From assembly GCA_016934015.1 (NCBI GenBank), contig JAFGTQ010000007.1:1-33850 (forward strand): a stretch of 33,850 nt of DNA, written 5' to 3'. Below are positions 4,215 through 15,112 of the stretch, piece by piece. The notes beneath the pieces are model-generated. The model was not told the DNA's origin. It ran no database searches and saw only the letters and a program-made list of their open reading frames with translations. The stretch's first letter is position 1. Every line of letters begins with the position of its first letter. Source of the DNA: Acholeplasmataceae bacterium. GTDB lineage: Bacteria; Bacillota_I; Bacilli_A; Acholeplasmatales; Acholeplasmataceae. The position numbers and the translations under genes were made by a program.

Positions 4215-4554
4215 TGGTGGAGATGAGGGGATTTGAACCCCTGTGCAAGACACTTCAATAAATGGTTTCTACATGCTTAGTTCAATCTATGATTTCACGT
4301 ATATATCGAGATGAACAAATGATATAAACACTATCCTATGTGGTTCGTCGATTAAGCTAGGATCATTAATCGATATAACTTACTAAATTGGGCCGCATCA
4401 GAACCGTAAGTAAATTCAGAATTGGCTCGCACCTTTTCTTAGGCAGCGAAACTAAAAGTTTGGTTTCCGGTTATTATAACCTCGGCTTTTTTACATGAGC
4501 AACCATGGCATGCTTACACGTATCTCTATGCCGTGACGAATCCAGAACATCCCC
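4215..4554 (-). ncRNA. ssrA: Transfer-messenger RNA (tmRNA)
   Basis: tmRNA rescues ribosomes stalled on broken mRNAs. The 5' end on the minus strand reads GGGGATGTTCTGGATTCG. The 3' end carries a T-arm (GGGGTTCAAATCCCC) and CATCTCCACCA with CCA encoded. The acceptor stem pairs GGGGATG with CATCTCC and has G-U at the third pair, the alanine identity determinant. The tag reading frame most likely lies at 4439-4486, running from GCC to TAA, and encodes AEVIITGNQTFSFAA, which ends in the degradation-type FAA. The resume codon is inferred from the position of a GCC in frame with the alanine-alanine-stop end. The length is about 340 nt. A promoter lies just upstream. Confidence 0.95.
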
Positions 4555-13387: not shown

Positions 13388-13404
13388 CTTAGGTCAGGCG
13401 ATTT
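13377..13404 (-). terminator. Terminator between mutY and queT
   Basis: The stem is AAATCGC/GCGATTT, extended by TGAC and TCA arms. On the minus strand it is followed by a strong run (TTTTTATTTTTT), so it mainly serves queT; on the plus strand the T-tract is weak. It overlaps the ends of both convergent genes. Confidence 0.75.
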
Positions 13405-13888
13405 ATTGATGAAAGGTTTCAATGAAAAATGGATGGTCCTTTAAGACTTTATACATTGGAAATCCTAAGACATAAAGTACAACTGCTTCACCAATGAAAA
13501 CCCAAATGGCAATGGGTACAAAAGGAATTTGATCGAGTATACTGATCATTAACCCAATAATGATTGCATTTGATATTGCTGGGAATATTAAAGCTACGAG
13601 CTTATGTTTGTTAAAAATGATTAGTAAAACTAAGCCAATAATGGTAGCAAGTGATCCAACGAGGGCATCCAAAATACCAAATGGACTAAATAACCAGTTT
13701 GCTACAAAAGTACCAATGGTTAATCCAATGATACTTTTCTTATCAAAGAAGACAAAGATAATGAGTAGTTCGGCAATTCTAAATTGGATTTTCTCAAAAC
13801 TCAAAAATTGAAAAGCATAAACTAAGACAACATAGACTGTAGCAAGCATGGCTTGCGTGGTAAAAGTGTAAATTAAACGTTTATTCAT
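13403..13888 (-). CDS. queT: QueT family queuosine-precursor transporter
   Basis: The 161-residue protein has about five membrane helices. It shows the QueT pattern: IQFRIAELL near residue 35, GLTIGTFVANWL, then ILDALVGSLATIIG and the C-terminal IGEAVVLYVLGFPMYK. QueT proteins are substrate-binding (S) components of energy-coupling-factor transporters for preQ1/preQ0 or queuine; the shared ECF ATPases are not in this window. I chose ATG 13888, 6 bases after the AGGGAG site. The frame is open further up, but that stretch is the riboswitch leader. It is divergent from tgt, which uses the imported base. A preQ1-I riboswitch overlapping its ribosome site probably shuts off translation when preQ1 is abundant. 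Confidence 0.88.
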   Translation of the reverse strand: MNKRLIYTFTTQAMLATVYVVLVYAFQFLSFEKIQFRIAELLIIFVFFDKKSIIGLTIGTFVANWLFSPFGILDALVGSLATIIGLVLLIIFNKHKLVALIFPAISNAIIIGLMISILDQIPFVPIAIWVFIGEAVVLYVLGFPMYKVLKDHPFFIETFHQ

Positions 13889-13894
13889 GATATT

Positions 13895-13934
13895 CTCCCT
13901 GTTTTGTTTTAGCTGGTTTCCTAGGGTACAGCTA
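13895..13934 (-). ncRNA. preQ1-I riboswitch in the queT leader
   Basis: On the minus strand TAGCTG (13929-13934) pairs with CAGCTA (13910-13915) as stem P1. The loop contains CCCT and ends in AAAC, whose last C matches the conserved ligand-pairing cytosine. An A-rich tail, AAAACAAAACA, follows and ends in AGGGAG. AGGG can pair with the loop CCCT to make the second pseudoknot stem. This is the preQ1 class I layout, and the tail strongly resembles the known Thermoanaerobacter element. Because AGGGAG is also the queT ribosome site, ligand binding should block translation. Confidence 0.88.
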
Positions 13935-13947
13935 ATCTTTGAATACT

Positions 13948-15112
<1,165 letters not shown>

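Follow-up and report, generated by a model that had tools for sequence, protein, structure and literature searches.

The window considered here, that is, the whole 33,850-nt stretch analyzed, comes from an uncultured Acholeplasmataceae bacterium (contig JAFGTQ010000007.1, assembly GCA_016934015.1), a member of a family of wall-less bacteria, and carries on its minus strand a queT gene preceded by a conserved pseudoknot-forming element. From 13935 to 13886 on that strand, the leader reads UUAGCUG-UACCCUAGGAAAC-CAGCUAA-AACAAAAC-AGGGAG-AAUAUC-AUG. We interpret it as very probably a class I riboswitch for preQ1, a precursor of the tRNA modification queuosine, that acts on translation and most resembles type II, with ligand, direction of control, and three-dimensional fold predicted from the class; the elements, their position, their covariation, and their strict link to queT are observed directly. 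The gene and the parts of its leader are as follows.

13403–13888, minus strand: queT, energy-coupling factor (ECF) transporter S component for queuosine precursors, 161 aa (PF06177, E 2.1e-38, 132.3 bits).
13895–13900, minus strand: AGGGAG, at once the 3′ strand of helix P2 (AGGG) and the queT Shine-Dalgarno sequence, six bases ahead of the ATG at 13888–13886.
13901–13908, minus strand: L3, the A-rich tail AACAAAAC, whose final C pairs with G13921.
13909–13915, minus strand: 3′ strand of helix P1, CAGCUAA (from sequence and covariation).
13916, minus strand: C of the AC preceding the P1 3′ strand (P1′), the putative preQ1 specificity base; AC in 53/53 family elements, with the C demanded by the search pattern and the A not.
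13916–13928, minus strand: loop UACCCUAGGAAAC, 13 nt.
13917–13920, minus strand: L2, GAAA (from sequence), differing in length among relatives.
13921–13922, minus strand: A13922, bulged (A opposite A in relatives), and G13921, which can pair with C13901 (from the alignment).
13923–13926, minus strand: 5′ strand of P2, CCCU (anti-Shine-Dalgarno), complementary to AGGG at 13897–13900.
13927–13928, minus strand: L1, U and A; UA in 53/53 family elements, as demanded by the search pattern.
13929–13935, minus strand: 5′ strand of P1, UUAGCUG (from sequence), forming 7 bp with CAGCUAA.

The U of L1 is presumably the counterpart of the preQ1-contacting U6 of the Thermoanaerobacter tengcongensis (Tte) riboswitch and, by analogy with the Tte pair G11–C30, G13921–C13901 would form the ceiling of the binding pocket. 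The original prediction had anticipated most of this arrangement: the target gene is indeed queT by its PF06177 match, the loop between the P1 arms does span 13 nt (13928–13916), and the double role of AGGGAG as pseudoknot partner and Shine-Dalgarno sequence is conserved with covariation across the family, as is the preQ1-I layout as a whole; the P1 helix is present as well, at 7 bp instead of the predicted 6. A longer queT reading frame, starting at 13954, would traverse the element; relatives keep the start at 13888, which follows AGGGAG.

To place the element in its family, 88 genomes were sampled, 56 of which have QueT, and the element lies ahead of queT at 53 of these 56 loci. The three exceptions are L022, where the contig ends partway through the element and AAAAAAACAAGGAG can still be read; L057, which has a different, classic-looking aptamer-like element (P1 AAGGUAG/CUACCUU, a 10-nt loop, and the P2 partner CUUU before a separate Shine-Dalgarno sequence); and L049, the only one of the 56 loci with no element. 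The 53 elements have loops of 12–16 nt and represent 37 distinct sequences, which were aligned with MAFFT as 37 rows. In P1, six of the seven pairs vary in both strands and the seventh is invariant; the combined covariation score of P1 and P2 is 0.309, compared with 0.123 ± 0.014 in shuffles, and it is highest at slide 0, with all slid registers lower. Because some relatives have an A opposite A where the window has its bulged A, P2 needs a register for each sequence, and the plain MAFFT alignment underestimates this helix, the A opposite the bulge shifting the register. With the register set for each sequence by the better pairing, so that the counts lean toward pairing, P2 pairs 1–3 are Watson-Crick in 53/53 elements (pair 1, UA in 49 and CG in 4; pair 2, CG in 53; pair 3, CG in 51 and UA in 2), and 46 of the elements have a standard pair at position 4. 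The double changes in P2 track the Shine-Dalgarno variants AGGG, AGGA, GGGA, and GGAG and are visible in the sequences themselves, with CCCUAG accompanying AGGG, UCCCAG accompanying GGGA, and CUCCAG accompanying GGAG. Alignment column 15 is G together with C in column 49 in 36 of the 37 rows, the remaining one (L054) being shifted by one base, and the tail A-A-A-A-C is unchanged in all 37.

The link to queT extends beyond the sampled genomes. A pattern scan for the exact core across 84,980 species, one genome per species, returned 28 contigs, all of which have the core ahead of queT on the same strand, with a distance of 5–9 nt to the aligned start in 27; tgt is divergent in 27, and the available piece of the remaining contig has no tgt match. 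These contigs are labeled Acholeplasmataceae, Acholeplasmatales, Acholeplasma, Phytoplasma sp. (a metagenome bin), Tenericutes, or Bacillota bacterium, and include Haploplasma modicum ATCC 29102 and Peloplasma aerotolerans. In the genome of the window, a covariance model trained on the family's own sequences (R1; matches below ∼30 bits were not taken as members) scored 67 bits at the queT leader and gave no second match at E ≤ 1.

If the element works as others of its class do, scarce preQ1 would leave the A-rich tail and AGGGAG free, ribosomes would initiate on queT, and precursor would be imported. When plentiful, preQ1 would pair with C13916 between P1 and the pseudoknot helix P2, and the bound ligand would lock CCCU and G of the loop onto AGGG and C of the Shine-Dalgarno region, blocking queT translation and so closing a negative feedback on uptake. 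The steps of this proposal (preQ1 at C13916, stabilization of P2, block of initiation) are borrowed from the riboswitch class. Control by transcription seems unlikely, because a consensus scan found no terminator-like site at the leader, its sole match lying inside queT at 13500–13517.

Several points weigh against this interpretation. The 3′ strand of P2, being a Shine-Dalgarno sequence, would be expected to be purine-rich anyway; the search pattern, which demanded UA at the start, C at the end, and a tail of the form AAC..GG, was set by the analyst, and part of the 53/53 uniformity is therefore by construction; and R1 was trained on the same sequences that it scores. In addition, the Rfam PreQ1 model RF00522, proposed as a check in the original prediction, gives the leader 10.6 bits in a local alignment that leaves P1 out, far from its gathering score of 39 bits (a limit set for the database, which does not define the class biochemically), and none of 160 genomes of the order has an RF00522 match above cut-off, while 1 of 14 control genomes does. 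On that check the window fails, and support for the class is comparative instead. A low score is expected for AC-type sequences, since the printed consensus of RF00522 closes its loop with the UC of type I. The model nonetheless aligns over its whole length to five of the 53 elements (L048, L054, L056, L033, and L025; 22.9–25.7 bits, sub-cut-off, among 17 loci examined). It does the same for five elements that precede queT or yhhQ and belong to other families in the order and class (L105, L107, L108, L109, and L114; 25.3–27.7 bits, sub-cut-off, among 16 loci examined). At gathering thresholds, Rfam reports only the transfer-messenger RNA (tmRNA) in the whole window. Among sub-cut-off matches, Clostridium-PBP (28.3 bits against a cut-off of 94.4, aligned mostly to the AT-rich leader and AUG context) and Mu-gpT-DE, both of which scored above PreQ1 in the leader yet below their own cut-offs, were rejected, as neither accounts for the conserved pairing.

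Similar elements occur outside the family. In sister family f4 (L098, L099), the element before queT is GCUGUACUAGAACACCAGC...AAAACAAGGAG, with 16.0 bits for RF00522, and we take it to resemble the textbook core of Tte and Bacillus subtilis (Bsu). Among 20 weaker R1 matches that were inspected, 17 (L098–L101 and L103–L115) look by eye like preQ1-I elements: 14 precede a QueT-like protein (incomplete in L101), two a YhhQ-like protein (L105, whose downstream protein is PF02592, the yhhQ type, and L107), and one (L115) a radical SAM gene at 352–1059 on the minus strand, weakly like the archaeosine enzyme RaSEA (35.4 bits against a cut-off of 212) and perhaps QueL. The other three look like chance: L102 is a hairpin without a queuosine gene, L116 precedes a gene that is presumably for a ribosomal protein S17-like product, and L117 has no gene nearby. 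Separately, family f2 has preQ1-I-like elements before yhhQ-like transporters (L105, L107, and L150) and, by eye, a type-I-like element before a QueC-like gene (L146), none of which passes the Rfam cut-off.

The remaining features of the window that were recorded are the following, the two promoter-like sites coming from a consensus scan only.

4215–4554, minus strand: tmRNA gene (Rfam RF00023, 136.5 bits).
13948–13976, plus strand: promoter-like site for tgt, TTAACA-17-TATAAT (11/12).
13953–13981, minus strand: promoter-like site for queT, TTGTAA-17-TACAAT.
13997–15112, plus strand: tgt, the divergent neighbor (PF01702, 500 bits; TIGR00430, 485.7 bits), with the pocket motifs FDECPP and GGLSVGE.

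The two promoter-like sites interlock on opposite strands (13948–13981), each -35 touching the other's -10, in a stretch that looks conserved among relatives, and queT and tgt may compete there for polymerase. The Tgt itself is unusual: CxCxxC, which we take to be the zinc-binding motif of bacterial Tgts, is missing in 49/49 family members spanning the region (51 matches, two of them partial) and likewise in the Tgt of L175 (f4), and the cysteine-rich form is found in 29/29 Tgts examined from f2. The whole family apparently has a zinc-less Tgt that retains the preQ1 pocket.

The base salvaged bears on the presumed ligand, and the original prediction that it is preQ1, not queuine, draws support from the Tgt pocket, QueA, QueG, and the QueC pattern, but is less firm than first put. 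The GGLSVGE of the window's Tgt recurs in every family member covering that site, while queuine-using Tgts typically have GG[LS][AS]G (PMC11570991). QueA is found in 56/88 family genomes; both congeners have it at full length, and the genome of the window has a fragment of 61 positions where a contig ends. A QueG domain is found in 35/88, both congeners included, and QueH in 16/88. The QueC family PF06508 matches in 86/88 genomes, but noisily: only G027 has a strong full-length match (122 bits), and the others, at ≤37.4 bits, are probably other PP-loop ATPases. Neither QueG nor QueH was found in the genome of the window, whose assembly is 83% complete, nor in some near-complete relatives (e.g., G041), gaps behind which there may be a further reductase or weak detection, PF08331 scores lying near the cut-off. 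As a separate observation, QueT and QueA are absent from all 29 genomes of genus g12 in family f1, which are small (300–900 kb, a size that points to phytoplasmas), and no Tgt appears for any of the 29 among the matches listed.

The alternative that survives best, although we consider it improbable, is that the pseudoknot senses another queuosine precursor imported by QueT, queuine or preQ0, with preQ1 as a weak ligand. QueT members can differ in substrate, Clostridium difficile QrtT transporting preQ1, queuine, and queuosine (Q) (PMC11130926), so that queuine may be imported here too, and the type II riboswitch Tte favors preQ1 over preQ0 only 17-fold (PMC10622847). However, the AC specificity mark, the L1 U, and the AAAAC tail of the preQ1-binding types are all kept, the Tgt pocket has the preQ1 form GGLSVG by the rule above (PMC11570991), QueA would be needless for a direct user of queuine, and just 1/88 family genomes has a homolog, a weak one, of the radical SAM gene of L115 that resembles queL. 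Still less probable, and in our view very unlikely, is a conserved pseudoknot that sequesters the Shine-Dalgarno sequence as a protein-binding site or thermosensor and responds to no small molecule. The helix covers the ribosome site whatever the binder, but the identities of the ligand pocket (A-C before P1′, AAAAC, and the G of CCUAG) are conserved well beyond the needs of pairing, and what unites the similar elements before queT, yhhQ (PF02592), and a RaSEA-related radical SAM gene across the order and class is the presence of queuosine genes, not one protein. In favor of a chance hairpin ahead of an ordinary Shine-Dalgarno sequence, the bare geometry (≥6 Watson-Crick pairs in P1, a loop of 10–16 nt whose last base is C, and ≥4 pairs in P2) was reached in 34 of 20,000 dinucleotide-shuffled versions of the 58-nt leader. 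The comparative data already refute this alternative: the conservation and covariation of the 37 distinct sequences and the 28/28 exact-core contigs before queT are much the stronger evidence, and they show the element to be real.

A preQ1 riboswitch ahead of queT would extend preQ1 control to the Acholeplasmataceae, and the element appears to represent a known switch class in a form particular to its lineage, one overlooked by the standard RNA database: the Rfam model, with type I marks in its consensus, finds none at its cut-off in the 160 genomes of the order. Our literature search found no paper combining preQ1, riboswitch, and Acholeplasma, and the only match for queuosine and Acholeplasma concerns glutamyl-tRNA synthetase. 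The type definitions were reportedly founded in a 2014 Chem Biol survey by McCown et al., which may already have included some of these sequences. The loops UACUAG (sister family), UANCCUAG (here), and UUCCUUG (elsewhere in the order and class) form a natural series for asking how lengthening of the pseudoknot helix changes translational control.

Compared with the described riboswitches, the leader has the H-type pseudoknot of preQ1-I, in which a short P1 is joined by a loop strand pairing with the 3′ tail, the C before P1′ and the A-rich L3, and a queuosine transporter gene downstream. The other classes, preQ1-II (RF01054) and preQ1-III (RF02680), were not listed in the leader at E up to 10. 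Within class I, UC before P1′ marks type I and AC type II, for which a review counts 521 members, and in type III UU and AC occur together, the pyrimidine-rich loop is short, and AAGG is occluded in full (PMC11625349). By that rule, the AC in 53/53 elements, beside which P1 is flanked by UA, assigns the family to type II. The type I switches of Listeria monocytogenes queT and Carnobacterium antarcticum likewise precede queT and are translational (PMC12519234), but type I is marked by UC ahead of P1′ and UU atop P1 and binds two preQ1 (PMC11625349, PMC12519234), and both sequence marks are missing here. The Escherichia coli (Eco) type III switch shares the AC motif and a Shine-Dalgarno sequence fully occluded in P2, but has UU beside P1 and the smallest loop and precedes yhhQ almost only in Pseudomonadota (PMC11625349, PMC10622847); here there are UA, a longer loop, queT, and Acholeplasmataceae.

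Among the type II forms, that of B. subtilis has a loop core of ...CUAG..., as here. It also shares AC before P1′ and a Watson-Crick P2, but acts through transcription termination (PMC11625349), whereas P2 here uses the Shine-Dalgarno sequence and the leader lacks a terminator-like site. Tte, a translational form that buries two Shine-Dalgarno bases within P2 (two canonical steps of four), is alike in that its pseudoknot is of the H type, AC precedes P1′, L3 is rich in A, and a loop G pairs with a tail C (G11–C30) (PMC11625349). Here, in contrast, four bases (AGGG) pair by Watson-Crick rules. The family loop is also longer, at 12–16 nt against 10 in Tte and by ∼2 bases relative to the f4 form; the original prediction was thus right to call it slightly long, and the reason is that the extra bases extend P2 far enough to pair the Shine-Dalgarno AGGG. 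Complete pairing of this kind has so far been described for type III and class II, not for type II. It is possible, though we hold it only tentatively and lean toward the simpler assignment, that the Acholeplasmataceae queT leaders form a distinct preQ1-I subtype, combining a type II pocket (AC) with a lengthened P2, an A bulge or A opposite A by the pocket ceiling, and complete pairing of the Shine-Dalgarno core. If so, full burial of the Shine-Dalgarno sequence would have evolved anew from a type II scaffold, with the bulge perhaps adjusting how tightly the ligand is bound or how well preQ1 is distinguished from preQ0.
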